Shown piece by piece: positions 27,094 to 52,560 of a stretch of DNA of 64,000 bases (its first letter is position 1; each line of letters starts with the position of its first letter). The notes under the pieces were generated by a model. That model ran no database searches and was not told the origin of the DNA. It saw only the letters and a program-made list of their open reading frames with translations. This DNA comes from Lamellibrachia satsuma (lineage: Eukaryota; Annelida; Polychaeta; Sabellida; Siboglinidae): contig BSQZ01000122.1 in assembly GCA_033239005.1 (NCBI GenBank), positions 178,501-242,500 on the forward strand. The letters run 5' to 3'. The translations under genes and the position numbers were made by a program.

Positions 27094-27422
27094 GCACCCA
27101 GGCGACATGCGAATTATTGACGGTAATTGCCTATGCTCTACGAAAATCTTATTAAAATCATATTCATACAACCCTACGGCATTCAAATAACCAAACAAAC
27201 GCATTGTAATTAGGGTGTATCTTAATAGGTATTTATATACCTATATATGTAATGTTATAAATTGTTCTCATCCGTGTGAATTATTTATTACTTAATCCAC
27301 TTTATATTTCCTATTATGTTGATGTGTAGACATTATTGCAACTGCTTATTTTTGTTGATTAACTATTGTGTGACTCTGTATGTCTGTAAGTTCCCTCGGA
27401 TCTCCGCCAACTTCGCATGTAT

Positions 27423-28190
27423 GGGGCTGACATTCTATAATGAGCCTCGGGGCCCGTGGGGCTGACATTCTATAATGAGCCCCGGGGCCCGTGGGGCTGA
27501 CATTCTATAATGAGCCCCGGGGTCCCGTGGGGCTGACATTCTATAATGAGCCCCGGGGCCCGTGGGGCTGATATTCTATAATGAGCCCCGGGGCCCGTGG
27601 GGCTGACATTCTATAATGAGCCCCGGGGCCCGTGGTGCTGACATTCTATAATGAGCCCCGGGGCCCGTGGGGCTGACATTCTATAATGAGCCCCGGGTCC
27701 CGTGGGGCTGACATTCTATAATGAGCCCCGGGGCCCGTGGGGCTGACATTCTATAATGAGCCCCGGGGCCCGTGTGGCTGACATTCTATAATGAGCCCCG
27801 GGGCCCGTGGGGCTGACATTCTATAATGAGCCCCGGGTCCCGTGGGGCTGACATTCTATAATGAGCCCCGGGGCCCGTGGGGCTGACATTCTATAATGAG
27901 CCCCGGGGCCCGTGGGGCTGACATTCTATAATGAGCCCCGGGGCCCATGGGGCTGACATTCTATAATGAGCCCCGGGGACCATGGGGCTGACATTCTATA
28001 ATGAGCCCCGGGGCCCGTGGGGCTGACATTCTATAATGAGCCCCGGGGCCCGTGGGGCTGACATTCTATAATGAGCCCCGGGGCCCGTGGGGCTGACATT
28101 CTGTAGCAAGGCCAGCGGAAAATGGGGCTGACATTCTGTAGCGAGCCCGAGGGCCCATGGGGCTGACATTCTGCAGCGAGCCCGGAGGCC
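27423..28190. repeat. 35-bp GC-rich minisatellite, ~22 copies
   Basis: The unit ggggctgacattctataatg + agccccggggcccgt repeats every 35 bases (starts at 27423, 27458 and so on). It is highly homogeneous through 28080. The last three units diverge (ctgtagcaag, ctgtagcgag, ctgcagcgag). Each unit carries an internal palindrome, gccccggggc, so either strand can form many short hairpins. The base composition differs sharply from the AT-rich flanks. Confidence 0.97.
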
Positions 28191-29873: not shown

Positions 29874-32156
29874 ATGGCAAAAGTGATCGTATTCAGCATG
29901 ATTGTGCTCCTGCAACTCACGGCTGTTCGCTCGGGGCTCAACGGTAAGTCGAAGGTTTGGTTAGAAATCTAACACAACAATGATTAAATGTATTCATAAT
30001 ATGTAAGATTATAAGGGTTATAGTGTTTAACTGAAAGTAGTGGCATCGGAATGGCAGGGTGGCTTATAATTCAGAAATATAGAGAATCGCACTCCAATAA
30101 ATACATTTTTAAAAGTCTGAACAGAACATGTGGTTACGGGGTTGCAGACTATATTACGCATAGGTTTGGTGTATCTTGATAATTTTGTTTTAATGTTGCG
30201 TAGTTACGCATTCAATTTACATAGGTGGGGCTCTATATAGTTAGGCGGCTTGGCTATTATTGAGATGTCGATTGTATAATTTGTTCCGTTCTGGGTGCTA
30301 CTTACTGTTAAAGGGAAACAAAAATCATGGTTTAGGGCCTATGCACATACACGACTTACTAGAACATAATCACAACCATATTGTTTTAAGGTTAAGTGTA
30401 TACTGGCCGTACGAAATACAACGTACAACAACAGGGCGGGGCACAAACATGTATATTCCAAAATGGCGACGGCACGTTGTTGCCTCGTTGTCGCATCTAA
30501 TTCTATTCGAGATTTGAAATTAGTTTATAATTAGATGGATGGCAGCATTAAAAAGCAAAAGTCAGCTGGCTGGCTGGCTGGCTGGCTGGCTGCTATGAAC
30601 CAATACGGGGTAGAGAGGTTTTGGTGCTGTACCCGGGAATGTTTTAAAACGAATTATGATTATAGTTAATCTACATGTAAACATGTAAATATTCGCTCAC
30701 TAAATGAACATTTATTTGTAAACACATAGTCTTATACTTACCAATAGTGTGTGACCATACTGTTCGCGTCTAAGTTCAACTTATAATCTGTGTTTTGGCC
30801 TTTGGTTACTAAACTTATCCCTTCTGACTTAGCAGCTCGTTTTATTGAACTTGATCAAGTTTGTGTTGCTCCTGTGTATACCAGTCGGTGCTTCGATTTC
30901 GATCGATAACACTTAACGCGTCACAACGGAAGACTAGCTGCATCGATTTCCTAGAATATCCAGGCGTCCGTTGGAAGCCCTTGTCAAAGTAAACCACTGA
31001 CATTATAGTATTGATTGTAGTTGCAAATGTTTAGTGTTTTTTAACTGCTTTAGACACACAGCCTCCAAACCATGTCTGTTGTTTCGTTTAATCAGGAGTT
31101 AATGATATTCTGAATGATAGTTCCGAATAAGTTGAGGTCGTGTAAGAGTTAAGCCGTTACGCTGTTGCAGGTCCGAAATGTGAGTCGACCAAGACTTGGT
31201 TTGACAATCCAGGTGCGATTAAGACCTTACCGAATTTCTGCAAACAGTCGTACGAATACATACTGAAGGGAGACTTCAATGGCGACGGTCGGATGGACAT
31301 TATGTGTCATGATTCACATTCAGGAAAGAAATGGATTTATTATGGCTCCAATCAGGGTTACTCCGGTATCGGCTGGAAAAAAAACATGGGATGGTGTTTC
31401 CATAATGGAGCCTCTCTCTACATCGGAGATTTCAATGGTGATTCTAGAGACGATATTCTCTGTCACGACACGAATGGTAACGTGTTTATCACGTACGCTG
31501 ACGGTAAGGGACACTTTAGTAAGACAGGGTGGCAGAAAGTCAAGATCTTCTGCAGGTGCAGTGGATGTCAACTGTTCATCGGCGACTTCAACGGGGACGG
31601 TAAATCTGACATGTTATGCCACGACGGTAAGCTTGGTCGGAAGTGGATCGCATACTCTACGGCTAGCGGCAACTTCCAGAATGCCGTAATCTGGTACAGG
31701 AACATGAAGTGGTGCTACACTTTGACCGGGAAACTGTTCGTGGGCGACTTCAACGGAGACCGCAGAGACGACATGTTTTGCTATGATGACACCGTAGTAA
31801 AGGGCAACACGCTCATAGCATACGCAAAGACGGGCGGATCGTTCGTGAGCACCGATGAAGCAGACAACATGGGCTGGTGTCTCGCCACAGGCTGCACGTT
31901 GTCCGTTGCTTCAGCCAGCAAAGACAGGAAAGACGACCTGGTGTGTCACTGCAAGAATCCGTCCTCGGAGCCAATCAGCGTTCGCTTTCCGTACAACGGT
32001 GGTGGCTTCGAAATCTTCCGTCAGTGGAGACGAGTCAGGTCTTGGTGTAACAAGTCGACGGAGATGCTGTTTGTCGGCCGACTCAAGCCTGGTCACTGCG
32101 GCAGTTTAGTCTGCATTGACAAAGCCACTGGAAAATATTCGATTGCGTTTTCCTAA
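29874..32156 (+). CDS. secreted FG-GAP/VCBS-like repeat protein, two exons, intact
   Basis: Exon 1 is 29874-29943, ending at a gtaagt donor. Exon 2 is 31171-32156, after gctgttgcag. The intron of 1,227 bp is phase 1. The product is 351 residues. Residues 1-20 (MAKVIVFSMIVLLQLTAVRS) form a signal peptide. Four repeats carry GDFNGDxRxD at residues about 57, 109, 161 and 215, spaced 52-54, each followed by a CHD/CYD triad. This is the D-x-N-x-D-x-x-x-D calcium-loop pattern of FG-GAP/VCBS beta-propeller blades. Two further blades (about 268 and 325) lost the acidic loop but keep the Cys. Conserved MGWC/MKWC motifs suggest disulfides. Probably an extracellular binding or lectin-like propeller; no enzyme motif seen. 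A phase 1 intron after a signal peptide is typical of secreted modular proteins. Confidence 0.9.
30564..30593. repeat. (GGCT)n tract in intron
   Basis: Seven tandem ggct/ctgg units inside the intron of the FG-GAP repeat gene. Confidence 0.95.
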
Positions 32157-37275: not shown

Positions 37276-38599
37276 GTGTGGTCTAAAAAAGTTGAACACC
37301 TGAAGCAGGAGGCTATATTCTGGCATCGACAGTGGCGAGCTGTGGGAAAGCCTCACCAGGGTGACATTACAGAAATGAGACGTATAACAAGAGCTCGTTA
37401 TCATAGGGCCGTTAGGCATATTATGAGAGAGGATGACAGAATTCGTACTACTAAGATGCCTGAAGCCATTAGTGAAAATAGAAACCGGGACTTGTGGTCT
37501 GAGGTGCGCCGGATAAAGAGCAGAAATAAATTCTTGAATTCAAATATTGATGGTGTGGTGGGTGATGAAGAAATAGCACAACCTTTTTCTTACAAATATA
37601 ATCACCTCTACAACAGTGTGTCATAGTTAATGTTATAGATACGGAGATTAACAAGCAGATTAAAGAAAATGTTGCGTATGATATATGAGTTGATGGGGTT
37701 ATCGAAGGTGTCCAGCGACTGAAGCTGGGTAAGTCGGATGGTGAAGAGGGTCTCAATTCTAATAATATCATACATGGTCCGAAAATACTCTTTGTGCTGT
37801 TAGCATTAATTTTTAACAATATGTTGGTACACGGTTTTAGCCCTAATTTATTGTTAGTGGGAACTATTGTTCCTATGCCAAAATATAAGAGACAATTAGT
37901 AAGTACATCCGACAATTTTAGAGCTATTACTCTTGGCAGCATTGTTGCCAAACTGTTTGATGTTGTTATACCATCTAACGAACAAACTGCTCTTGCAACA
38001 TCGCATTTGCAATTTGGTTTTAAACAAAATATGTCCACTACTCACTGCACATATGTTATGATGGAGACAATCAGTTATTATAATGCAAATGACAGTAATG
38101 TGTATGCACTCATGTTAGATGCCAGCAAAACATTCTACAGGGTCAATTATTGTAAGCTTTTTAGAGTACTTCTAAAACGTAAGGTATCACCCCTGGTATT
38201 AAGATTGCTGCTGTATATGTATACTAAACAAAAACTTCAAGTAAGATGGTGCTCTAGTATGTCATCCCAGTTTACCACTTGTAACGGAGTCAAACAGGGT
38301 GCAATACTTTCTCCTATTCTCTTCTCCATATACATGGATGGATTGTTTGAACAGTTAGAAGAGAGGGATGCCACATGGGCAACCACTATACGGGTTGCAT
38401 TGGATACGCAGATGATCTCACTTTGCTAACACCCACAAGATCTGGGCTCAAGGTTTTACTCGATATATGCGAAAAATATGCACACGAATACTGTGTAAAT
38501 TTTAACGGTACTACGAGTAGATATTCGATTTTTAGAGGTCGTAATTGTAAACCCGACAACAGAACTGTGTTTTTTAATGACACAGAGTTGTATTGTTGA
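37276..38599 (+). pseudogene. LINE A reverse transcriptase (broken, 3'-truncated)
   Basis: Linker frame 37276-37626 includes LWSEVRRIKSRNKF. The 211-codon frame 37794-38429 has GTIVPMPKYK, SDNFRAITLGSIVAKLFD, LQFGFKQNMSTTHC, MLDASKTFYRVNY (motif A, catalytic family DASKAFD with the second Asp changed to Tyr) and NGVKQGAILSPILFSIYMDG (motif B). A frameshift at about 38375 leads to GYADDLTLLTPT (motif C intact), and the sequence ends at DTELYC. The linker and the reverse transcriptase are separated by a stop at 37624. Confidence 0.85.
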
Positions 38600-38635
38600 T
38601 GTCGCGAGAGTGCCATGTCGCGAGAGTGCCATGTA

Positions 38636-39190
38636 CTAAGGTGTGCTTGTTCGAAGGCAATTCTAAATACGAAATATTATTTTGTAGGTTGGCCGACAGA
38701 GCTGTTGCACGTCACAAAAAGGAATAATTAATACAAACTGGATTGAAATGTATGATCGTAAATGGATGTCGATGTACTTGTGACAATAAATAAAGCACGT
38801 TTCAACGAATGCAACTGCATGATCGTAACGCTTACCTTTCTCTGGTAGAATCAAGACAATTTACTTACTCTCAATGTTTCGGCTGCCATCGGCTGCCTTC
38901 ACCAGGAATTCCGGGACGGTTAATTCTTCCTTTGCTCACCAGTTGACAAGGTAAGTAGGCCGTAGCATACATGGCTCAGTCTGTGTTCCCCTCGTCTCGA
39001 TTCATGACTGGAGTCGTCGTTCTGATCCATATAGCCTCTTTGATCCATCTGGCGGTTCTGTTACGTTCTGTCTATCACCTTTGCCCCCCCCATTTGCAAA
39101 TTACTCCCAGTCTATGATCCAATTGTTCTTATTTGCATTTTCTGCTATTGCAGATTTCTGCTCTATTGTCGCTGATTCTGTCTGCTTTGT
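38636..39190. other. intergenic, no gene recognised
   Basis: No supported feature. Confidence 0.4.
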
Positions 39191-39199
39191 TCCCTTCTT

Positions 39200-39830
39200 G
39201 TGTTATTCCAGCCTTGTTCCAAATGTTCTCCCTTTTTCGCCCATATACGTGTGGCTAGAGTTCTTACAAGGGATTTGGTATACACAGTTTGTCTGAATGT
39301 GTATGCCCACAAACTAGTAGCTGGCATGGGGCAGGAGAAGCCACGGGCTCTGCCAATGTTGCACGCTCTGACTGGGTGTGACGCCATGATAAGAAGACTG
39401 CCTGAACAATCTAGACCGTGCTGCTAGAATATGCAGACGCACTGCTGAGGTTGTCATAAAAAATATGTCATGCCCACCATCGATAGGTTCGTAATCTTGC
39501 TGCATGACAAAACCAGCACATGCGCGGACACAGACAAAACACGAAATAACATAGTCGTAAAGAAAAGCGATACGCATGTGATCCCTCCAATGAAAGCAGT
39601 CCTGGAGGAGCATGTCAAGAGGGCGGCCTAACAGGGAGGCCATGTGTGGGGCCAGATATTGCTACCGGCACCGGAGTTGCCTCCACTAACCAGCTGGGGC
39701 TGGGCCAAGAATGAGGAAGGGTGTACAACAAAACGCGGGGAATGCACATATTTACTGCCGAAACAGTCATCGCTACGTACACGTTTTGTATTCAAATTGA
39801 AATTGTGGAAATACACTTTATATTTATAGC
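39200..39830 (+). pseudogene. decayed member of a repetitive metazoan protein family (HALTGCD motif)
   Basis: In one frame 39320-39425 reads VAGMGQEKPRALPMLHALTG then CDA. After stops, RFVILLHDKTSTCADTDK (about 39487), PPMKAVLEEHVKRAA (about 39580) and HVWGQILLPAPELPPLTSWG (about 39641) follow in order. I recall the combination 'EKxxALPxxHALTGCD', 'LEEHVKRAAYQGGHVWGQ' and 'SWGW' from a family of uncharacterised, often multi-copy proteins in invertebrate genomes, which suggests a mobile or domesticated origin. The Cys-rich C-terminus expected after SWGW is disrupted. Function unknown. Confidence 0.5.
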
Positions 39831-40579
39831 ATAATGCTAATAAACTATATGATTTGGCATATGCGCCTTTTCATGTGATGTCATTGGCATTACATACCAT
39901 CTGATAGCGTAAACGCATTGTCATGGTTAGTCTTACTTATAATATCGCCCAGCCATTGCTCATGCGTGATTATACTGCACGTATATTTTTGCATCATGCG
40001 AATCAACAAATAGATCGTCATGAGAATCGACCCATGGGTGTGCGTCATACGGTTCTCTAAAATGTTAATTACTTGCAATGTCAGAAGTTATTTTAAGCTA
40101 AAACTCATAAGATGAAACTGTGCGCAACATAATACAGGCCGCCATCATCCAATAAAGTTATATGAATACTTTATCTACATATACTCCCGGTGTAGATAAA
40201 GCAGACTACCAATGACTATGTAAACACAATCAATCACCGAAGATAAGTTTAAAAACCGACGCGAACGCTCTCCTGTGTAGATATCTTGTACATTTTAATT
40301 TCGACGATTAGAAAGCCACGAGCCATATAACATTGTGTGACACAAGCATTTACATATATGTTGTAGCGGTATTTGTCTAGCAAGTTTGCCTATGTACGAC
40401 GCACTTAACATGGTTGATAAAACGCGCTTGGAATTACTTGATGTCCACGAAGCAGGCAACCGCTGAGCACATAGAGTAACGCTTCTGAAATACCACGTGT
40501 TCTTGTTTGTTCTTTTGCAAGCGCGTTACGGGAACACAGAGGAAGAATTTATTACAACGAAAAAGACGTCTCTCTCAAG
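39831..40579. other. intergenic, no gene recognised
   Basis: No supported feature apart from the possible 5' flank of the exon at 40580. Confidence 0.35.
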
Positions 40580-40698
40580 ATGACAGACAACAGTTTTTTT
40601 AAGTGTGATGTAATGGACGGTGTGCTGATGGTGGAGGGCCGACTACCTCAGAAAGCAGATGCGGTGAAACAGCCACGTCGTAGGAAAAGTTACACACA
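40580..40698 (+). CDS. candidate first coding exon (KRRKSYT-type N-terminus)
   Basis: ATG after tctctctcaag opens a 40-codon frame (MTDNSFFKCDVMDG...) that ends in QPRRRKSYTQ directly at a strong splice donor, aca|gtaagtgag (donor at 40699). An Arg/Lys-rich stretch followed by SYT resembles the start of pogo/Tigger-type DNA-binding regions (KSYTxEFKL), and caggaatttgatttgaag (QEFDLK) appears 220 bp downstream at about 40917. The straightforward splice to that site is out of frame, so either another exon is used or an insertion split the coding sequence. Similarity is short and the gene call is tentative. Confidence 0.35.
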
Positions 40699-40719
40699 GT
40701 AAGTGAGATGGGAGGTTTG

Positions 40720-41289
40720 CGTAAAGATGTATGTGAGGAATGTGGAAATTTGAATGATTAGAAGTGTTATCACATAGTGTATTGTATGATAACTGGACAC
40801 CCAGTGCTTGGATCCGCCAATGGTCTCAACCATGTTTCTCGCCAGAACTTGGCAGATGTGCAATAGCTGCACTGTTCCCATTGTGTCACTCTCAAAATTT
40901 AAATCCTGACTGGACAGGAATTTGATTTGAAGGGTGTGATGAACTCAGTATTTGAAGAGTGAGATCAACTCAATAATACGCTGGTGAGAAAAAACATTAA
41001 ATCCTAGAAAATGTCCGAAGCCTCAAGTTGGGGGCGACGTTGGTTTGTGCGAGCATGTTGGCTGCCTCCACATATCCATCGAAAATAACGCATATGCTAG
41101 TTACAAATTAAGATACTTATTAAACTTTCGTCCCCAATTCACGAGATCGAGATAGGTTAACAAAATCGGTGTAATTATGCTGGTGTTAAGATTACGACTA
41201 AACAATTGAAACCCGGAAGAGATTATTCGAATAAAACGCACCGCTTGCTCTACAAACTAGCTATGCAAAACACACAGAAACAGAGGATC
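40720..41289. other. intergenic, no gene recognised
   Basis: Apart from the EFDLK-like words near 40917 nothing coding is visible. Confidence 0.35.
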
Positions 41290-41465
41290 GGATATGGCGT
41301 ATATGAAATGTTTGATGCGATTGAAATTCACGGTAATACCGAGTGAACCCGACGATAATTGGGTGCAAAAATGTGGTTTGAATGTTCGTTAGAGTTACCG
41401 TTAGATGGCATCACTTAACATACATGACCCATAATATCGCATCTGTAATCGCTAGAGGGCGAACA
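41290..41465 (-). repeat. dispersed repeat, copy 2 (inverted relative to 14525)
   Basis: Complement of the element at 14525-14700, about 75-80% identical by eye. It abuts a (TA)n tract at its outer end. Confidence 0.75.
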
Positions 41466-41487
41466 TTATAAATAAAAAAAATACAGT

Positions 41488-41488
<1 letters not shown>

Positions 41489-41561
<73 letters not shown>
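41489..41561. repeat. (TA)n microsatellite
   Basis: Uninterrupted TA run of about 70 bases. Confidence 0.98.
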
Positions 41562-41563
<2 letters not shown>

Positions 41564-41804
41564 GAGTCCTCAATGTAGTGATACAGGTCTTTATTATGAT
41601 GTGTTGAATGTGTTGAAGCCAATTCCTTTGTACTGAACCCTTCTCACCATATGTTTTCTAAGATGGACTCTCCAGCCAAAAAGATATCGGGTAAAGGAGT
41701 TGCAATTGTTATAATCTGTTCTGATCTTTCAGCAAGTAATGCACTACTTAGTACTAAGTTCATGGTAACTTCCTGTTTAACCTTTTATTCAAATATTTTT
41801 TATA

Positions 41805-41950
41805 CAGAAGGGCGGGATTCACATACTTGAAACATTGTTTGATTCACGATAAGCCATTAGCTTCATTGTCCACTTATCATGTGGGTATTTTGCCTTGGAT
41901 GGCAATTGTGCTAAATCGTGTTAAATACATTTGCTAATATGTTTATCTTG
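41805..41950 (+). mobile_element. LINE family C 3' end (tail only)
   Basis: aagggcgggattcacata...ataagccattagcttcattg, tccacttatcatgtgggt, ggatggcaattgtgctaaat and cgtgttaaata match the 3' ends at 57560-57690 and 60520-60660. No coding part remains, as in an extremely 5'-truncated insertion. It lies 235 bp downstream of the minus-strand peptide gene's stop codon. Confidence 0.7.
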
Positions 41951-42184
41951 ACTACAAACCAGGCATATCGGCCAGTCAGGTATCCCATCAACTTTGGTGT
42001 CCCATCGAGCATTTTATATTTAATCAATTGTGCGTCTTAGTTATATCATCTGGCACAGGTACGAAGTCAAAGGGAAAGTTATATCTTGCTACCGAAATAC
42101 ACATATTTCATAAAAAGAGCATGTATATTTTCCTAGATGCAGCACTCCTGTATAATACACAAGTCATGCTTATATCAGATACCA

Positions 42185-42783
42185 TTATACCGATTTATAT
42201 GCGATGTCTGGACGATATGTTCTTTTGCAACGTATCACAATTTCGAAATAATCGTCGATATTGTAGAATAGGTATACTAAAGGCCTCATCATGTTTACAC
42301 TATTAATGGCTGTTAAAGTCGGATTTAATAAGACGTTTAAAATAATTTGTCAGTTTTAATGCCAATTCTACTTAGACGGTGACAATCGTTTAACTTTTAA
42401 TGTTTTAATGCTCTGTCCTTTTAATAATTACACGTTTCTACTTGTTGGATTCAAACATAAGGAGCAATATTTACGATGCGCGTTTGTCACAGCAACCAGA
42501 TCAAGGAACAGGACACAACAAAGAAATATCACTTCACTGCAGCCAATAAACAATGTTCCCTATAATGAAAGGTTTCATTGCAAGTATCGGCTATTTTTTT
42601 CAATTAATATACCCCAACATCTCATTTACACAATGCAAGCTATTAATTGCAAAAAACACAGATACATAACTCGACATCAAATTTAAAACTGTAGCTACAC
42701 CCGGTCACATGCCGAACCATATTTTTGTATTTATTGCTACACACAAACAGATAAAAAACACGAAGTCAAACTAAACTCTTCAT
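42185..42783 (-). CDS. small secreted peptide paralogue, minus strand (first donor lost)
   Basis: Aligned with the plus-strand gene at 44274-44879, exons are 42783-42776 (ATGAAGAG), 42536-42475 and 42309-42185, the same 8, 62 and 125 nt. Joined this way they are open and end in TAA at the same codon as the paralogue (64 residues). The signal sequence starts MKSEVIFLCCVLFL and ends NAH; the mature part holds YFEIVIRC and ends KSV. The exon-1 donor gtaagt of the plus copy is tttagt here, and the exon-2 donor is gtaaat, so normal splicing is doubtful. Open exons despite divergence suggest recent loss or another first exon. Both acceptors are intact (gctgcag, tttaacag). The polyA hexamer region reads aatata. 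Possibly a pseudogene. Confidence 0.55.
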
Positions 42784-43060
42784 ATTTTTCTATATTGACT
42801 TATTGGCTCTTTCAATTTGTGTGCGACTGCAGCGTGGTATCTAGTGCATTCGCTGATCACGCATGACAATGCGGCATGTAACGCGCATTTGATTTAAGAA
42901 CTAGTCATTCGCACATGATATCAGTCGAACTAGTACGAATTGTACGTTACGTTATTATATTCGTGCACCTATAATCGACACTGATATGAAGTATATCATG
43001 AAAGTTCACATGGACTCATGTATTTGTAATTAAAGCACTGAGATGAAGAAATATTTGTGT
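42784..43060. promoter_or_regulatory. shared 5' flank of the minus-strand peptide gene
   Basis: On the minus strand this matches the region upstream of the plus-strand gene: ttcgactgatatca, tcaaatgcgcgttac, gccgcattg and tcatgcgtgatcagcg followed by cactagatacca.gctgcag. The last module is single here and tandemly duplicated in the plus copy. Conserved flanks in both genes suggest the duplication included the promoter. Confidence 0.6.
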
Positions 43061-43071
43061 TTTCAGATATA

Positions 43072-43310
43072 ATGGCTAAGACAAAAGCGCTTACTCCATG
43101 TACACATTGTGTTATAAATGCACTTAAAAACGAGGGGTTTTCAATCCGAGAGATCGCCAAAGCAAATCAAAGGTCGGGGTGGTGTCGTGAAAAACATTAT
43201 GAGGGAGTATGGACAACCCCACAGAAAATATATAGACGCCCGCAATCCTATGCGGCTGAACATTTGAAGCCTCATCCACATGACAAGATTGGCCTTCTCC
43301 AGTAACGCAT
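43072..43310 (+). pseudogene. Tc1/mariner-like transposase N-terminal fragment
   Basis: The frame from ATG 43072 encodes MAKTKALTPCTHC and then ALKNEGFSIREIAK, the first helix-turn-helix of Tc1-type transposases (family pattern 'LTPxxRxxIxxLxxEGxSxREIAK'). After a frameshift, GVVKNIMREYGQPHRKY fits the second recognition helix region. The catalytic DDE/D core is absent. A splice-acceptor-like tgtgttttcag precedes the ATG. It sits between the two inverted peptide genes. Confidence 0.65.
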
Positions 43311-43950
43311 TGTACAGTTCTTCATCTAAGGGCAACATCTCGACCTACGATTCCTTTGCTTCTACGACTTCAATCCACCTTCATGCTGCAGCTGTTGCAC
43401 ATATTGCTGTGATGTCACGTCAAGTGGACACTTTTAAGTCATGCTGGTTGCTATGCCACGTTTGGGTAATAATTCGGATATCACGAACCGAACGAGGGGG
43501 GCTTGCAAATATTTTTGTTTGGGATGTCGACACTCCCACACCAGTTCTGTTCACGACGTAACCAACTGTCTATTTGCTGGCATATAATCGTTTGGCGATT
43601 TCACGCTGGAAAGTGAAGTGTTCACGGCATGTTTACGGGCTGTCAGCTGCTTTGGCTTACCCACTACATATGAAAACACAAGAATCGGTAATCTGAACCA
43701 TATGTCTATAGCAAAGATGATCAAATAGAAATGGAGGGGACATTTTGTTTTTTTGCGAACCGCTGGTTTTAAGCTAGTCTCAATTATCACATGCCCTGTA
43801 TATTTCGATTTAATAGTAACTTAATTAGATAAGTATCGTTTTCCCATTTATGTGCGGGATATTCATTTCATTGTTTTAATTAAACGTATATGAGTTTACG
43901 TGTATTTTGTTTAGCATACGTCATGTCAATGTCGCCGCATTATAACAATG
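43311..43950. other. intergenic between the peptide genes
   Basis: No recognisable gene; ORFs at 43280-43561 (+) and 43551-43790 (-) have no motif. Confidence 0.4.
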
Positions 43951-44065
43951 TGATTACAGATGCATGGATACATAACGTAAACGTCTTACTAAATGGTTTG
44001 ACTGATATCAAGAATATTTGATATAAATATTTATCTAATCAAATGCAAGTTACTTGCTGCATTGG

Positions 44066-44262
44066 TATGTCATGCGTGATCAGCGCTTGTACTAGATACC
44101 AAGCTGCTGCAGTTCAAATTTATTTAGTTACAGCCGCGTAAGATAAACGAGCTGGCAAGTCAACATTGTTCTATCATGCGTGACCGGCGAGTGTACTAGA
44201 TACCAAGCTGCAGCAGCTAGAAATAGTTAGAGCGGTGTAAGCTGAACGAGCTGGCAAGTCAA
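44066..44262 (+). promoter_or_regulatory. tandemly duplicated ~100-bp upstream module
   Basis: catgcgtgatcagcgcttgt + actagataccaagctgctgc ... acgagctggcaagtcaaca (about 44070-44164) is repeated at about 44176-44263 (catgcgtgaccggcgagtgt, tactagataccaagctgc, then gaacgagctggcaagtcaac). The second copy ends ten bases before the ATG, so the repeat covers 5'-UTR and promoter. The minus-strand paralogue has one copy. Confidence 0.8.
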
Positions 44263-44273
44263 CAGAGGCTAAC

Positions 44274-44879
44274 ATGAAGAGGTAAGTATGATTTCGTTAT
44301 GTTGTTCTGTTCAGTTTATGTGAGGTAGTTAAACAAACACGGTTCGGTTTTTGGCCGAGATAATGTCAATGTTGACGTATAGTTATGTCTCTGACGTTGC
44401 ATCCAGTAGCTTGGGTTGCCCAGCATGAGGTAATGTTGCAGTATATGGATCGTTGCAAATACGATAGCCAATACATGCAGTCATACATGTCATTACAGGA
44501 AACATTGTTTGTTGGTTGCAGTGAAGTGATCTTTCTTTGGTGTGTCCTGATCTTTGGTCTGGTTGCCATGGCAAGCGCACATCGTAAGTATTCCACGTTT
44601 TGTTTGAAATCACCAAGAACAAACACGTAATAAACGAAAGATCAACAACATTAAAGCTTCAACAAGTTAAACGATATATCTAACCAGTTTAATATACGTT
44701 ACTACCAAAAATGCCAAATAATATAATACGATTAAGTAAGTCCGGCATTAACAGCCATTTATGGCATAATACTGTTCAAGCCATTACTCCATATATTCAT
44801 CGATATCGATCCCTATTTTGAAATTATGGTAAGTTGTATAGGATCATATTGTCTAGACATTCAACCTATGCCGGTTTAG
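44274..44879 (+). CDS. small secreted peptide precursor, 64 residues, three exons
   Basis: Exon 1 44274-44281 (ATGAAGAG, donor gtaagtatg), exon 2 44522-44583 (acceptor ttggttgcag, donor gtaagtatt), exon 3 44755-44879 (acceptor cattaacag, stop TAG). Introns of 240 and 171 bp. Splicing creates MKSEVIFLWCVLIFGLVAMA then SAH, a textbook signal peptide that exists only in the spliced frame. The 41-residue remainder starts PIYGIILFKP, contains DIDPYFEIMVSCIG, has two Cys and ends QPMPV. An inverted paralogue at 42185-42783 has identical exon lengths and stop position, with about 16/23 identities in the signal part but only about 16/41 in the mature part. AATAAA follows at 44931. No known family was recognised; secretion is inferred, function unknown. 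Confidence 0.75.
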
Positions 44880-45148
44880 TTATTTTTTTAAACTTTGACG
44901 AATTGTTGTATTATATAGTACTGCGGTCAAAATAAACATTTTCTGATCCTGAAATATGTATATGTCTGATGAAGCGATATCGATCCCTATTTTGAAATGA
45001 TGGTAAGTTGTATAGGAACATATTGTCTAGACATTCAACCAATGCCGGTTTAGTTATTTGTTTAAACTTTGATGACTTGTTGTATTATATAGTACTGCGG
45101 TCAAAATAAACATTTTCTGATCCTCAAATATGTATATGTCTGAAGAAG
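44801..45148 (+). repeat. 174-bp tandem duplication of the peptide gene's 3' end
   Basis: 44801-44974 is repeated at 44975-45148 with ~95% identity. The unit covers the last ~26 codons of exon 3, the stop codon, the 3' UTR and the AATAAA signal, so the second copy is a promoterless terminal-exon duplicate with its own AATAAA (45105). It still reads YFEMMVSCIG through QPMPV and stop. Confidence 0.92.
44931..44936 (+). terminator. polyadenylation signal of the plus-strand peptide gene
   Basis: AATAAA 52 bases after the TAG stop; duplicated at 45105-45110 by the 174-bp tandem repeat. Confidence 0.7.
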
Positions 45149-45369
45149 CATTAAACTGTCCTTTTTACCTCATGTGTGTGCCAGAGGATAGTCACACACT
45201 GGGTGAATGTTGGGTTTCTGTGCTCACGAAAAGTGATGCACCACATGGCGCGTGGGCTCCACTGTGCATGTTACTCATTAATGCAATACACATTAGATGT
45301 ACATATATAATTGCCTGATTCAAAGTAAACATAATTCAAATATAATTTGTTAATGAATCGCTTTGTAAA

Positions 45370-45640
45370 ATAGCTGTGTTGTGCGAAATGAAAGGACATT
45401 GCCGTGCACATGATTCTGATACACACCATACAAATGAAACATATTTTATTTATTTATATTATATACATTTTATTATGTTACGTTATTACCATCGTTCATT
45501 CTTGTTAGAGACATGTCAACTTACGTCTGCAATAGTTAATAACAAGCAGATGTTGTGCCTGAATGACCTTTTCAAACGCACATACATTGATCAAGCAGAG
45601 ACAGCGTTTTCATACATTATAAACTGTGTGTCACGATGAC
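45370..45640 (+). repeat. repeated segment, copy 1 (related to 46230-46390 and 47372-47484)
   Basis: 45490-45603 (gttcattcttgttagagaca to tgatcaagcagag) matches 47372-47484 at ~90%. The following gcagagacag...gcgatgacctgc region has a counterpart at about 46318-46370. These look like degenerate ~0.9-kb repeats that also carry the CA tracts. Confidence 0.75.
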
Positions 45641-45803
45641 CTGCCCTCAATGAATGTGTATCCTGCGTGTTATGACGTCGTCAAGGAATTTGATACACGT
45701 CAAGGAATTTGACGCAGTGTGTTGTGTCGCCGTTCCGATGATTATATCTATATGATATGCAATACTCGTATTTCTCACATCACATACATAAATGCACACG
45801 TAT

Positions 45804-46690
<887 letters not shown>

Positions 46691-47371
46691 GCGCGCAATC
46701 CTATTGAAGGTGCGCGCTTGCACAGTAACGACATCTCCATCACATATCAAGGTCCAGCAAAAATATACAGTCCATCTGCTCACTCTATCTACAAATGTTC
46801 CACGGGGCACTACGCCATATGTTTAGATTTCTTTTGAGATTATCCAATTTGACTAGAAGCGTGTTCGCACGACTTTCTGCCGCTGTAGTTTATTTGCATA
46901 CGTAGTTACTCATCGGCATTGATGTGTAAGCCTGTCACACTTCAGTAAGTTCGTCTTTCTCTCAAACATGTACGTGACCGGGCTATCTGTCCCGGCGATA
47001 TGCACCTGGTTATACTCTTTAAATATCGTTGCCTCAGTGTACATTTCTGTTTCTGATATATGTTTGTGAATGTAAGGTATCTGAAAGAATAGTACGCAGT
47101 AGCAACGACAACTTTCACCAATCAATGGAGATGTCATTCAACCAATGGTTGTTATTGAGCAATAACGTTTTGACGGATATTGCGTGAGATCTCCCGCTTT
47201 TTGATAACTTTCAAACGCACACTCCATCTTCCGCTGTCAAAGAAACTCCCGCTTTCTGCGTATTTTATTTTACGGTGTTTTTCATTGATTGTTTTCAGGG
47301 TACTGCCTAAGTTTTTGATCAGTTAATTTACATACGATTATGCGGTGCAATATAATTATTCGTGTATGAAC
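46691..47371. other. intergenic, no gene recognised
   Basis: atgtcattcaaccaatggt at 47130 echoes acgtcattacaccaatggc at 46030, another sign of the degenerate local repeats. Confidence 0.4.
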
Positions 47372-47484
47372 ATCGTTCATTCTTGCTACAGACATGTCAG
47401 CTTACGTCTACAATAGTTAATAAGAAGCAGATGTTGTGCCTGAAGGACCTTTTCAAACGCACATACATTGATCAAGCAGAGTCA
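47372..47484 (+). repeat. repeated segment, copy 3
   Basis: ~90% match to 45490-45603. Confidence 0.85.
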
Positions 47485-47559
47485 AGTAGTAGTCCTAGAA
47501 TTGGGCATTATGTTAGGTAATAGGCCGGTAATGTTTACTGAAGCGTATCGTTCACTGGT

Positions 47560-47851
47560 AGACTATATATATATGCTGGGGACAGTTCTAACCGAGGTCG
47601 ATCGATTGTAGTTCGCGAGAAGGCGGCTACAATATTTAAAGAGATGGTCGATCGATTGTAGTTCGCGAGGAGGCAGCTACAATAGTTAAAGAGACAGTCG
47701 ATCGATTGTAGTTCACGAGAAGGTGGCTGCAATAGTTAAGGGACGGACATAGATAAGTTGAGAGAACACAACTAATCTGCAGTACTGAAATTATGGGTCA
47801 GTAAAAGCTGCATGACGCAACACAATTTGAACAATGCCAGAAGCGACTGGC
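47560..47851 (+). promoter_or_regulatory. candidate promoter and first exon (MPEATG, gtaagt)
   Basis: tatatatata at about 47565 could be a TATA box. Downstream are three 50-bp repeats and then ATGCCAGAAGCGACTGGC (47834-47851), followed directly by the strong donor gtaagtatt. This would encode MPEATG ending in phase 0. No second exon was identified, and the Ngaro-like element begins about 100 bp further. The parts are individually weak. Confidence 0.25.
47597..47746. repeat. 50-bp tandem repeat, 3 copies
   Basis: gtcgatcgattgtagttcgc recurs at 47597, 47647 and 47697, each followed by gagaaggcggctacaata or a close variant. Contains the palindrome tcgatcga. Confidence 0.92.
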
Positions 47852-47889
47852 GTAAGTATTATCTATTACGTTGTTAGCTGATAATATGT

Positions 47890-47899
47890 GTGTATATAG

Positions 47900-47946
<47 letters not shown>
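47890..47946. repeat. (TA)n tract at the 3' end of the Ngaro-like element
   Basis: Pure TA run ending exactly where repeat B2 begins. The opposite end of the element also abuts (TA)n. Confidence 0.95.
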
Positions 47947-47951
<5 letters not shown>

Positions 47952-48256
47952 GCAATAACCAATACAAATCCGATGTAGCAATGAATTGAAACAGGCCAAA
48001 CAAATGACGTTTTTTATTGCAAAGTGGACTGCTTATCACGCAGCCACTTTGGGAAGAACATTAACAGGAATGTGAGCTCCTCAAAGCAAACCAGACAGGA
48101 ACTGAACACATGTACAGCCCCATCCGGCAAGTTTCTCAGAGCCCACATTCCTACAAGCATGACGATAACATATATACATCAAAAAGTCGTCATGAACATG
48201 TAATGCAAAGAATACAGACATTCCACCACCAATACACAAATTTAATTACAAACAGG
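47947..48256 (-). repeat. split repeat B2 (310 bp)
   Basis: tttatgcaataaccaataca to taattacaaacagg. Same length as B1 (48510-48819) and about 97% identical (a handful of substitutions). Confidence 0.92.
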
Positions 48257-48277
48257 TGGGGCCATTTCGCTAACCTA

Positions 48278-48510
48278 TAGTCACAACTTCGCAATGCAGA
48301 GACTGAATCAGGAGTGAAAGAGTCAAGCTACTGGCTCCGGTTTGAACTGGTTTCCGCTAAGCCGTGATTAGCTGGCTAGCGCGGAGTAATACAATTTATT
48401 TGGCCAAATAGTTCCGGTGTAGTCTCGGACACCCAGGGCAAGTTTAACAACGACCTGTCTTGGTTATTTCATAAAAATTGTTATGTACCTGTTGAGTTGC
48501 ATAAATTCAT
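48278..48510 (-). repeat. split repeat A2 (233 bp)
   Basis: tagtcacaacttcgcaatgc to ttgcataaattcat, matching A1 at 54010-54241 with about eight differences. It abuts B1 directly and is separated from B2 by 21 bases. Confidence 0.92.
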
Positions 48511-48819
48511 TTATGCAATAACCAACACAAGTCCGATGTAGTAGAGAATTGAAACAGGCCAAATAAATGACGTTTTTTATTGCAAAGTGGACTGCTTATC
48601 ACGCAGCCACTTTGGGAAGAACATTAACAGGAATGTGAGCTCCTCAAAGCAAACCAGACAGGAACTGAACACATGTACAGCCCCGTCCGGCAAGTTTCTC
48701 AGAGCCCACATTCCTACAAGCATGACGATAACATATATACATCAAAAAGTCGTCATGAACATGTAATGCAAAGAATACAGACATTCCACTACCAATACAC
48801 AAATTTAATTACAAACAGG
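48510..48819 (-). repeat. split repeat B1 (310 bp)
   Basis: Direct repeat of 47947-48256. Its inner edge lies about 20 bp from the end of the gag ORF. Confidence 0.92.
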
Positions 48820-48838
48820 TAGTGACCCCTTTATATCG

Positions 48839-50251
48839 TTATGCTGGTAAGCCATTGAGAAGATACGGAAAAAGATTATGATTGTAGCCGACAAGGATAT
48901 ATCTTAGTGCGTCGGGAGAGACTGGGGTAGGCATACTATCTCCTGAAAACGGCTGGTCGCGAACTGGCAGTCGACGAATGGGCCGCAGGGTTGCCGGTGG
49001 CTGATGTCGGTCGGGCAGGATTAGGTTTGCTTTGTTGCCTATAGCAGTGTACCGCTGAGTGGGGGCCGCCACAGCGTCTACACGTGTGTGTGTGTAGCGA
49101 CAGGTGGCTGCGTTACAGACCTCCCCCCGATCGTATGCGAAGCAGGTTTTGGTGGATGGCCACTTAGCATTACCCCAGCTGACCTTACCCGTGCTACGAA
49201 AGGGGGCCCCACTGGGTGTGGCAGCTGGGCGACTCTCGGATGCATTCATCCACAGGTACCAGCAAACCGATTCCCACCCCAGTTGTTAGCCTGACGAAGC
49301 GACCGGAATGCCTCGTCATACGACCGCCAGTCTGCACCCTTCTCATATAATGAACGAACCGTCTGGATGTACATGAGCATGTTGTATGATTCTGCCATGT
49401 GTTGCGGCTGAAGCAGGAAGACAGACATGTAAACTTCGAAACCCTGCAGCCATTGGTCAAATGACACAGTGCTGCTCCTTGCCCTAGGGGCGACACAGAA
49501 CATGGGAGTCTCGTCGTCACTGCCTGGCCTAACTGACACAGAATAGCTTTGTGGTGAGGAGTCATGCAACGATGAAGAAATACTAACATAGTCCCCGGAC
49601 CAAATTTGGGCTTTGACCTTGTCAGACACGCGGGAATGACGGGATAGGGCTGAAGTTGCAAACGAGGCTACTAGATCTCGGGATGCCCTGGGGAGAGTGT
49701 GTACTTCATTGCCTGTATGGATACATGAAGATATGGCCTCTGGCCACGGGGCTGACGTTGGTCTTGGAACGGGGCTTGGTGGAGCGCCTGCCGCATATGA
49801 TGCCACCCGACTTGGTGTATGGCCGCCCTGCGGCCATAGACAAAGGTTAGACAAGGGCGGAGCGATGGGCCCCCCCCCCGGCAGACGCCTCCATTGCCAC
49901 AGGGACCGCTATTGGAGGCAGCGCAGGTAGGGCATTGGTCGCAGGCAGTTGTTGCAGACCACGCACCATTGCGTGGACTTCCTGCAACATCTTGTCAGAA
50001 GCTTCAAGCCGGCGCTCCATACTCGACAAGCGCTCCTCCGTTGTACCTCTTCGACCCGCGGCTGCGCCCACTACCGGATGAACGGCCTGCTGGTGAGCCA
50101 GCTCGTCGTCAAGGTGCTGCACGATGTGGCCCATTGCCGATCGTGCAACGGAAGCGCGGCTAGCCGCCGCTCGCGACCTTGTTGCCACCGGGCTGTGGCG
50201 CAGAGGTCGTCCACGACGAACATTCTTAGATGGAGCCATCCTGCAACACAT
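48839..50251 (-). pseudogene. gag ORF of the Ngaro-like element (two frameshifts)
   Basis: Three overlapping frames: 50251-49847, 49854-49246 and 49249-48839. The N-terminal part is basic and includes a coiled-coil-like TTEERLSSMERRLEASDKML. The middle has SDKVKAQIWSGDYV, FDQWLQGFEVYMSV and YDEAFRSLRQANNWGG, the same motif series as the ORF at 8560-9806. The C-terminal part has CFAYDRGEVCNAATCRYTH, a C-x7-C-x4-C-x3-H knuckle. The end, PVSPDALRYILVGYNHNLF then YLLNGLPA, resembles the segment that leads into reverse transcriptase in DIRS-like elements. A ten-C run near 49869-49879 marks one frameshift. Expected role: RNA packaging. Confidence 0.75.
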
Positions 50252-50333: not shown

Positions 50334-52560
50334 GGGGGTCACCGCCCATAATAACCCATCAATACAAGACAGTAACCAAGTAATTAGGGGGTCACCGCCC
50401 CCGATAGATCACCACAAAATGGAATCACAGTTAGTTAAGGGGTCACCGCCCACGATAGATCACCACAAAATGGAATCACAGTTAATTAAGGGGTCACCGC
50501 CCACGGTAGTAGATCAACGCAACATTGTAAAGCATAGCTAGTTAGGGAGCCACCGCCCCCGATAGTAGATCAATGCAAAGTTGTAATCACATTTATTTAG
50601 GGGGTCGCCACCCACGATAGATCACCACAAAGTGGAATCACAGTTACTTAAGGGGTCACCGCCCACGGTAGTAGATCAACGCAACATTGTAAAGCATAGT
50701 TAGTTAGGGGGACACCGCCCACAATATTAGATCAATGCAATGTTGTAATCACAGTTAATTAGGGGGTCACCGCCCGCGATAGAACATCAATGCAAGAAAT
50801 GCAGAGTCAGTTAAGTAGGGGGACACCGCCCCCGATAGAACATCAACGCAAAATTATAATCACAGTAAGTTAGGGGACACCACCCACGATAGTACATCAA
50901 AGCAGTAATTGCAAACACAGTTAATTAGGGGGTCACCGCCAACGAAAGTACATCGACGCAAAAGTGCCAGAAGTTGGGGTCACCTCCCACGATAGCAAAT
51001 AAAGTGTCATCACAGTTGACGTTGTGTCACTGTTAATAATAGCAACACTAAATGGGATTACAGGGGTCACCGCCCACTATGGATCACCAGAAAATGGAAT
51101 CGCAGTTAGTTGTGGGGTCACCGCCCACGATAGATCAACACGAAATGGGATCACAGTTAGGTGAGGGGTCACCGCCCACGATAGTAGATCAATACGAGAA
51201 TTGCACATGCAGTTAAATATGTAGGTCAAAACGAAATTAAAATCACAGTTAGTTAGGGGACACCACCCATGATAGTAGATAAATACAAAATTATAATCAC
51301 GGTTAATTAGGGGACACCGCCAACGATAGTAGATTAATGCAAAATTATAATCACAGTTGGTTAGGGGTCACCGCCCACCATAGTACGTCAATGCAAGAAT
51401 TGCAACGCAGTTAAGTATGGGGTCACCGCCCACGATAGTAGATCAATGCAAAATTGTAATCACAGTTGGTTAGGGGTCACCGCCCACCATAGTACGTCAA
51501 TGCAAGAATTGCAACGCAGTTAAGTATGGGGTCACCGCCCACGATAGTAGATCAATGCAAAATTATAATCACAGTTGGTTAGGGGTCACCGCCCACCATA
51601 GTACGTCAATGCAAGAATTGCAACGCAATTAAGTATGGGGTCACCGCCCACGATAGTAGATCAATGCAAAATTATAATCACAGTTGGTTAGGGGTCACCG
51701 CCCACCATAGTACGTCAATGCAAGAATTGCAACGCAGTTAAGTATGGGGTCACCGCCCACGATAGTAGATCAATGCAAAATTGTAATCATAGTTAGTTAG
51801 GGGACACCGCCCACGATAGTACATCAATGCAACATTGTAATCATAGTTAGTTAGAGGACACCGCCCACGATAGTACATCAATGCAAAAATGTAATCATAG
51901 TTAGTTAGGGGACACCGCCCACGATAGTACATCAATGCAAAATTGTAATCATAGTTAGTTAGGGGACACCGCCCACGATAGTACATCAATGCAAAATTGT
52001 AATGACTGTTAGTTAGGGGACACCGACCACGATAGTACATCAATGCAAAATTGTAATCATAGTTAGGGGACACCGCCCACGAATATTACATCAATGCAAA
52101 ATTGTAATCACAGTTAGTTAGGGGACACCGCCCACGATAGTAGATTAATGCAAAATTATAATCACAGTTGTTTAGGGGTCACCGCCCACCATAGTACTTC
52201 AATGCAAAAAATTGCAACGCAGTTAAGTATGGGGTCACCGCCCACGATAGTACATCAGTGCAAAATTATAATGACAGTTAGTTAGGGGACACCGCCCACG
52301 ATAGCACATCAATGCAAAATTATAATGACAGTTAGTTAGGGGACACCGCCCACGATAGCACATCAATGCAAGAATTGCAAACGCAGTTAAGTAGGGGGTC
52401 ACCGCCCACGCTAGTACATAAATGTAAAATTATAATCACAGTTATTTAGGGGACACCGCCCATGATAGTATATCAATGCAGAAATTGCAACCACAGTTAA
52501 TTAGGGGGTCACCAACCACGATAGTAAATAAAGTGTCATCGCAGTAAGACGTTGTGTCAC
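50334..52560. repeat. 54-bp tandem array, ~40 units, with 109-bp higher-order dimers
   Basis: The unit ggggtcaccgcccacgatag + tagatcaatgcaaaattgta + atcacagttagtta repeats throughout. 51800-52080 has exact 54-bp spacing. 51363-51798 is four copies of a 109-bp dimer (starts 51363, 51472, 51581, 51690), made of a 56-bp and a 53-bp monomer. Edge units (50340-51240) are more variable. The conserved box is gg(g)tcaccgccca. It lies inside the Ngaro-like element between SGNH and gag. Confidence 0.97.

Follow-up and report, generated by a model that had tools for sequence, protein, structure and literature searches.

In mammals, the WFDC/semenogelin (REST) locus with SPINT3-5 joins a conserved signal-peptide exon to unrelated mature exons, including those of WAP and Kunitz inhibitors, and changed acceptor sites and repeat expansion have been proposed as the causes (PMC3209443). 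A Kunitz-type inhibitor is also entered in a protein table in the tube section of a tubeworm genome paper (PMC8476170). Here we analyse a stretch of 64,000 nucleotides (nt) of the Lamellibrachia satsuma genome (the window), which carries a head-to-head pair of short three-exon gene models. The window is C122:178501-242500 (C122 is contig BSQZ01000122.1) in a genome of 735 Mb and 279 contigs; the 36 stretches of this genome that were fetched around matches carry L-numbers, and P0121 and P0122 are predicted proteins of L. satsuma. Lamellibrachia is a vestimentiferan. We think it fairly likely that the pair consists of body-less gene heads, members of an annelid family whose clustered genes encode small secreted protease inhibitors, the third exon of the models being likely intron sequence. 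In each head, a conserved region upstream and in the 5' leader is followed by the 8-nt first coding exon (ATGAAGAG) and a signal exon of 62 nt with a phase-1 donor, and one such signal exon would serve unrelated inhibitor bodies within the cluster. The fast-changing mature peptide reported in an initial annotation of the pair is probably leftover intron sequence.

The two copies form an inverted pair at the place where it had been reported, 68% identical over 700 nt (E 4e-61). Exon lengths of 8, 62 and 125 nt, and a conceptual product of 64 amino acids (aa) with the stop at the same place, were confirmed in both, and the residue identities given earlier (16/23 in the signal, 16/41 in the mature part) became 15/22 and 17/42 on recounting, with the boundary moved by one. 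As had also been pointed out, the start codon lies in the 8-nt coding exon, so that such genes are missed by plain lists of open reading frames; spliced prediction caught two of them in L. satsuma. In the plus copy, the coding part of exon 1 (ATGAAGAG, 44274..44281) runs directly into the donor GTAAGTAT; the acceptor TTGCAG precedes exon 2, the signal-peptide exon (44522..44583), whose phase-1 donor is again GTAAGTAT; and AACAG precedes the 125 nt of exon 3 (44755..44879), a 41-codon frame open to TAG that most likely derives from intron 2. Each acceptor has CAG as its last three bases, and splicing in silico gives 64 residues with a typical signal peptide. On the minus strand, the exon-1 relic (42776..42783) is followed by TTTAGT, with TT in place of GT, while exon 2 (42475..42536) and the exon-3-like stretch (42185..42309) keep an open frame; taking the GT one base earlier as donor shifts the frame and brings a stop in a few codons. 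The statement that all four splice positions are shared is thus not confirmed, as it fails at donor 1 of the minus copy. The minus copy is dead at that donor, and the plus copy could in principle still be transcribed and spliced. A conserved 5' block lies upstream of the ATG in two tandem copies on the plus strand (44070..44101 and 44174..44205) and at 42835..42866 on the minus strand.

A scan of the 64 kb for signal-peptide models with strong splice sites found one, the plus copy. Six shuffled sequences gave 0, 0, 0, 1, 2 and 0, so the plus-copy model taken alone could be chance. The head is nevertheless real, because it is conserved in this genome and in predicted L. satsuma proteins. A profile of three products and five heads, run against 5.8 billion proteins, returned two matches among 29 candidates, both from L. 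satsuma: P0121 (81 aa, E 1.4e-7) and P0122 (85 aa, E 1.5e-6). The head of P0121 (LSAT2_003795) agrees with that of L072 in 23/23 residues and is followed by a WAP-like domain (PF00095; E 0.0066 for P0121 and 0.00064 for L072, both under Pfam's cut-off). The head of P0122 equals that of L070 save for one residue and is followed by a Kunitz domain (PF00014, 9.2e-16). The closest named relatives of the heads are therefore annelid (L. satsuma) and not mollusc. Where the initial annotation recognised no known family, these two proteins make a Kunitz and WAP-like protease inhibitor family recognisable; the proposed secreted-protein head with an 8-nt first coding exon, common to a family, is borne out by their starting with it, identical or one residue off. 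Other searches were less informative: Pfam gave no match, and no Kunitz domain (PF00014), for the 64-aa product or exon 3; single-sequence protein and Protein Data Bank (PDB) searches with the product returned nothing useful; Rfam and tRNA searches gave nothing relevant; and the viral contigs searched gave no lead, leaving aside 52 matches to a 16-base pattern.

Searched with P0122, the genome yielded 113 matches, some of which are Kunitz exons lying a short way behind heads on C122. At L070, L073 and L093 the Kunitz exon lies 1.6-2.4 kb past the head behind a phase-1 CCCCAG acceptor, and the resulting proteins have 85 residues and the build of P0122; the L073 body is 92-93% identical to the P0122 body, and the phase-1 reading of the L092 Kunitz exon is also open. 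L072 has a WAP exon 94% like that of P0121, 6.3-6.4 kb downstream on the same strand, behind a GGTTGCAG acceptor in phase 1, and at L067 a Kunitz exon and a Kunitz-antistasin exon follow 4.3 and 5.3 kb downstream. Across the relatives, the inhibitor exon follows its head on the same strand at a distance of 0.5 to 10.4 kb and is Kunitz, Kunitz plus antistasin, or WAP-like. Among the 24 signal exons counted (the union of DNA and protein matches minus one 36-base fragment, further decayed copies in the fetched stretches not being entered), 11 are followed on the same strand by an inhibitor exon no more than 11 kb away, three have one upstream and two on the other strand; one of the 11 bodies (on C78) has a stop. 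On C122 alone, 9/17 signal exons have a same-strand downstream body, where random placement gave a mean of 1.8 and never as many in 5000 trials. Thus P0122 (Kunitz/BPTI) and its paralogues L070, L073 and L093 resemble the window copies in a head within 1-5 residues, a phase-1 join to the body, on the same strand, and clustering, and differ in having the Kunitz exon that the window copies lack. P0121 and the L072 gene, whose heads are identical, differ likewise, no WAP exon being present behind the window copies.

Both window copies have a 62-nt signal exon with an AG acceptor and a phase-1 GT donor, the plus copy alone has the ATGAAGAG exon with a GT donor, and neither has an inhibitor exon downstream on its strand. 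In the window, tblastn and unfiltered nhmmer (best E 0.94) gave no convincing match to Kunitz, WAP or Kunitz-antistasin bodies, and the Kunitz matches listed for the genome include none in reach of either copy on its strand; we therefore regard both as body-less members, which would have lost their inhibitor bodies. The plus head might instead be spliced to a mature exon that we fail to recognise, farther downstream or of another fold, given that the family has bodies of several folds and that heads and bodies can be 6.4 kb (WAP), perhaps 10.4 kb (Kunitz-antistasin), apart. Against such a distant body, no open stretch with at least five cysteines in the 15.4 kb downstream of the plus copy looks inhibitor-like by eye, the window holds no body match, and the matches listed for C122 include no plus-strand Kunitz exon from the window up to 612 kb. 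We consider it improbable.

The initial annotation held that the mature part changes more than its surroundings, as in an arms-race peptide. Between the two copies, exon 3 is 65.6% identical (82/125), intron 1 67.7% (155/229) and intron 2 69.7% (115/165); only exon 2 stands out, at 83.9% (52/62). The signal exon thus changes slowly, whereas the mature part diverges as fast as the introns. Across four copies, the differences by codon position in exon 3 are 0.39/0.24/0.24, and nonsynonymous (dN) is close to synonymous (dS) divergence, so that exon 3 bears no sign of selection on a protein in either direction; for exon 2, mean dN is 0.27 and dS 0.33. A fast-changing arms-race peptide could not be upheld as fact. 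In L067, furthermore, the counterpart of exon 3 (C122:643151-643267, to which L082 aligns weakly, E 1e-5) sits between the head and the Kunitz exons and is by position intron 2, which makes an arms-race peptide unneeded as an explanation. Most likely, exon 3 of the plus copy would be intron-2 sequence that happens to be open, and a 41-codon open stretch behind one of many AGs should not be rare in A+T-rich DNA. The mature part also lacks the conserved cysteine pattern or net positive charge of a cysteine-rich or cationic defence peptide; the cysteines (two in the plus copy, one in the minus copy and one in L067) share their positions only in part, and charge varies between copies, both by eye. 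A shared exon 3 was sought in other subfamilies, where only short or repeat-driven frames were found. Read-through of donor 2 as the true C-terminus was rejected, since a 1-nt gap follows shortly past the donor in L070, L073 and L093.

Several observations weigh against the view that the pair are heads that lost inhibitor bodies and that exon 3 is intron. In two of six Kunitz exons (L066 and L084), the phase-1 reading from the expected acceptor is not open, and the L084 body has a stop. For 13 of the 24 heads, no inhibitor exon lies within reach. We fixed the 11-kb limit once the 10.4-kb case was known; that case, a Kunitz-antistasin frame downstream of the twin of the plus copy, may have another head in between. 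The WAP exon was sought only in the fetched stretches and was found beside one head fetched on purpose. With donor 1 dead and the acceptor of its first Kunitz exon altered, L067 is no clean working gene either, and its 'intron' is one by position. In three copies (plus, minus and L067), exon 3 stays open without an indel and reaches an identical stop position; a neutral simulation with the intron indel rate put such frame retention at about 4e-4, before correction for the choice of acceptor. Finally, the plus copy and its 98% twin (C122:877k) are both intact, with two changes in the 187 nt of exons 2 and 3, both of which change the amino acid.

These last observations are what would be expected if the plus copy were a functional gene encoding a secreted precursor of 64 aa (mature part HPIYG...QPMPV, 42 residues), born after loss of the inhibitor exon by splicing into the former intron, much as a switch of acceptor has been proposed for semenogelin-type genes. 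It has an intact ATG, GTAAGTAT donors, CAG acceptors, a stop and an AATAAA, and it is the only signal model with strong splice sites in the window. The frame, however, is kept also where donor 1 is dead: two of the three frame-keeping copies share that defect, so there the frame outlived any spliced product, its retention needs none, and the simulated figure carries less weight. Moreover, exon 3 evolves like an intron and without a codon-position signal, a search of the genome with the exon-3 protein gave seven matches at only five loci, and the AATAAA is not conserved in the alignment of other type-I copies. The end of the frame and the AATAAA are part of a 174-bp tandem duplication (44801..45148, plus strand). 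The partial L061 copy also ends at the same exon-3 stop, and an earlier frame test on exons 2 and 3 of the minus copy had given 0.09-0.10 leaving indels aside, to be multiplied by 0.014 for the lack of any indel. We judge a working newborn gene unlikely, if well worth keeping in mind; that the plus copy is in full a gene caught at birth, a head deprived of its Kunitz exon in a cluster working like the WFDC/semenogelin locus, with captured intron as a 125-nt mature exon and its own poly(A) signal, and already doubled by segmental duplication, is slightly more doubtful still.

The heads themselves are numerous and clustered. The 5' head was found at no fewer than 32 places, or at least 30 heads (as the second tandem block of the plus copy and that of its twin account for two of the places), and exon 2 at at least 20 places by DNA and at least 21 by protein, a union of at least 24 signal exons; these are lower bounds, as the genome search scores its best candidates only. 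Every listed match of either kind is on four of the 279 contigs (C122, C78, C44 and C226). In the head alignment (38 rows from 44 pattern matches, six having been dropped beforehand), ATGAAGAG is followed directly by GT in 20 rows; donor 1 is TT in three, namely the window minus copy, its twin in L077 and L067, and the copies in L065, L069 and L071 that have this region show AAG for ATG. Conservation in this region peaks at exon 2, with a major-base frequency of 0.85-0.91 over 44510-44569 and 0.78 at the 3' end of the exon, as measured on 13 copies chosen for having no exon-2 indel; other copies have such indels (e.g. L061, L064, L075 and L082). The codon-position test on exon 2 was not significant (P 0.15 when any frame is allowed), freedom from stops in 15 copies has a product of 0.03 on a star tree, and replacements in the signal core are hydrophobic in 39/48 cases against an expected 0.54 (0/200 simulations, star tree), or in 18/25 after removal of duplicates (P 0.05). 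A short upstream reading frame in the conserved 5' block was considered and set aside, several copies having ACG for ATG. We also noted heads without exon 2 at the usual distance, running into intron-2-like sequence, in L063, L076, L078, L090 and L091 (C122, C44 and C226); about 3 kb downstream, L076 and L078 have another exon 2 with a Kunitz exon behind it.

So many copies, a good number of them decayed, might suggest that the repeated head is a mobile or structural repeat whose exons arose by chance, and eight alignments begin at a single base, 44031, with others piling up at the tandem block. The remaining 5' ends of similarity are nevertheless spread over 43862-44068, and the confinement of all listed matches to four contigs also speaks against a mobile element. 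L085-L088, and L079 with L095, share more than 1 kb of common flank, as in segmental duplication. The head begins annotated L. satsuma proteins, and its hydrophobic core exceeds the neutral expectation, if more weakly without duplicates. A mobile repeat is thus very improbable, and a protease-inhibitor gene family remains our preferred origin for the heads.

In a tree of 36 heads, the window minus copy groups with L067, L066, L070, L073 and L093, and the plus copy with copies on C226 and its own twin. As each copy has nearer relatives elsewhere than its partner, the pair did not arise by recent inversion of a single gene. Further head-to-head neighbours are found in L061, L066, L070, L071, L073, L077 and L093, some partners being short pieces, and were absent from the C78 stretches. 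L077 (C122:874500-880500) is a segmental duplicate of the whole inverted pair, as compared with window positions 38000-50000; its plus copy is intact, its minus copy is further broken (acceptor CAA, and an 8-nt insertion in the exon-3-like frame), and beyond about 45.5 kb it matches the window in reverse orientation.

In intact relatives, judging by what is known of these inhibitor families, the product would enter the secretory pathway and lose its signal peptide near SA^H, and its loop would block serine proteases. Seven domains of this genome could be parsed (L092 could not), and in these the residue after the second Kunitz cysteine, which we take to be the P1 place, is C, Y, F, R, E, R and L. 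Such variation among body-bearing relatives would fit diversifying inhibitors; in the three closest Kunitz bodies dN and dS are similar, on few changes. Fast change around the inhibitory loop is thus seen in the body-bearing relatives and not in the window. As further observations, residues around that loop differ strongly between the neighbouring Kunitz paralogues L066, L067/L106, L070, L073, L093 and L107, and a Kunitz domain (PF00014) with an antistasin repeat (PF02822) behind it in the same frame occurs at L106:408-677 (minus strand) and L107:7282-7644 (plus strand). A first look downstream of L083 and L084 showed no large coding exons; the L084 Kunitz exon emerged in a later search.

Other features of the window lie apart from the two copies. 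Between them, at 43061-43300 (plus strand), is a broken frame starting MAKTKALTPC, which presumably resembles the N-terminal part of a Tc1-type transposase. At 31146-32156 (plus strand), a 336-aa open frame has FG-GAP/VCBS repeats (PF13517, 2.3e-22); it has 15 matches in the genome (C122, C63, C185, C50 and C52), some with an internal stop, and its nearest named relative, at 67%, is from L. satsuma. A tandem repeat with a 35-bp unit (21 copies, 94% matches) occupies 27422-28172, and 50381-52526 is taken up by a long tandem array, whose units measure about 51-56 and 109 bp.

The part of the literature consulted on tubeworm Kunitz proteins and Lamellibrachia inhibitors, mostly outside subscription journals, does not describe this cluster; the Riftia genome paper has no mention of the inhibitor terms looked for, and the literature on annelid secreted or orphan peptide families gave no lead. 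Judging by the protein table in the tubeworm genome paper, such inhibitors may matter for the tube or for symbiosis (PMC8476170). Among described systems, mussel myticalins likewise have three exons, a conserved signal peptide, a hypervariable mature part and pseudogenes; they differ in that the mature peptide is cationic with a conserved anionic C-terminal part, and in that the first exon is all 5' untranslated and signal and mature parts share one exon (PMC5577615). Schistosome micro-exon genes are similar in their very short coding exons and variable secreted proteins, and unlike the present genes in belonging to a flatworm and in being built of short exons with long introns (PMC10526429). 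There is also a parallel with the WFDC/semenogelin locus, which has one conserved signal exon and unrelated mature exons, with WAP and Kunitz members, in one cluster (PMC3209443). Similarly, Kunitz and WAP-like bodies behind phase-1 acceptors lie on C122 with one type of signal exon, and Kunitz-antistasin bodies are placed downstream of heads, to which splicing would in each case join them. However, the present cluster is annelid and has its signal peptide encoded by two exons, of 8 and 62 nt, and the likeness we propose would be one in way of working, with no claim of common descent. If this is correct, the cluster would be an invertebrate equivalent of the mammalian locus and would offer a chance to follow how secreted genes acquire, exchange and lose their bodies.

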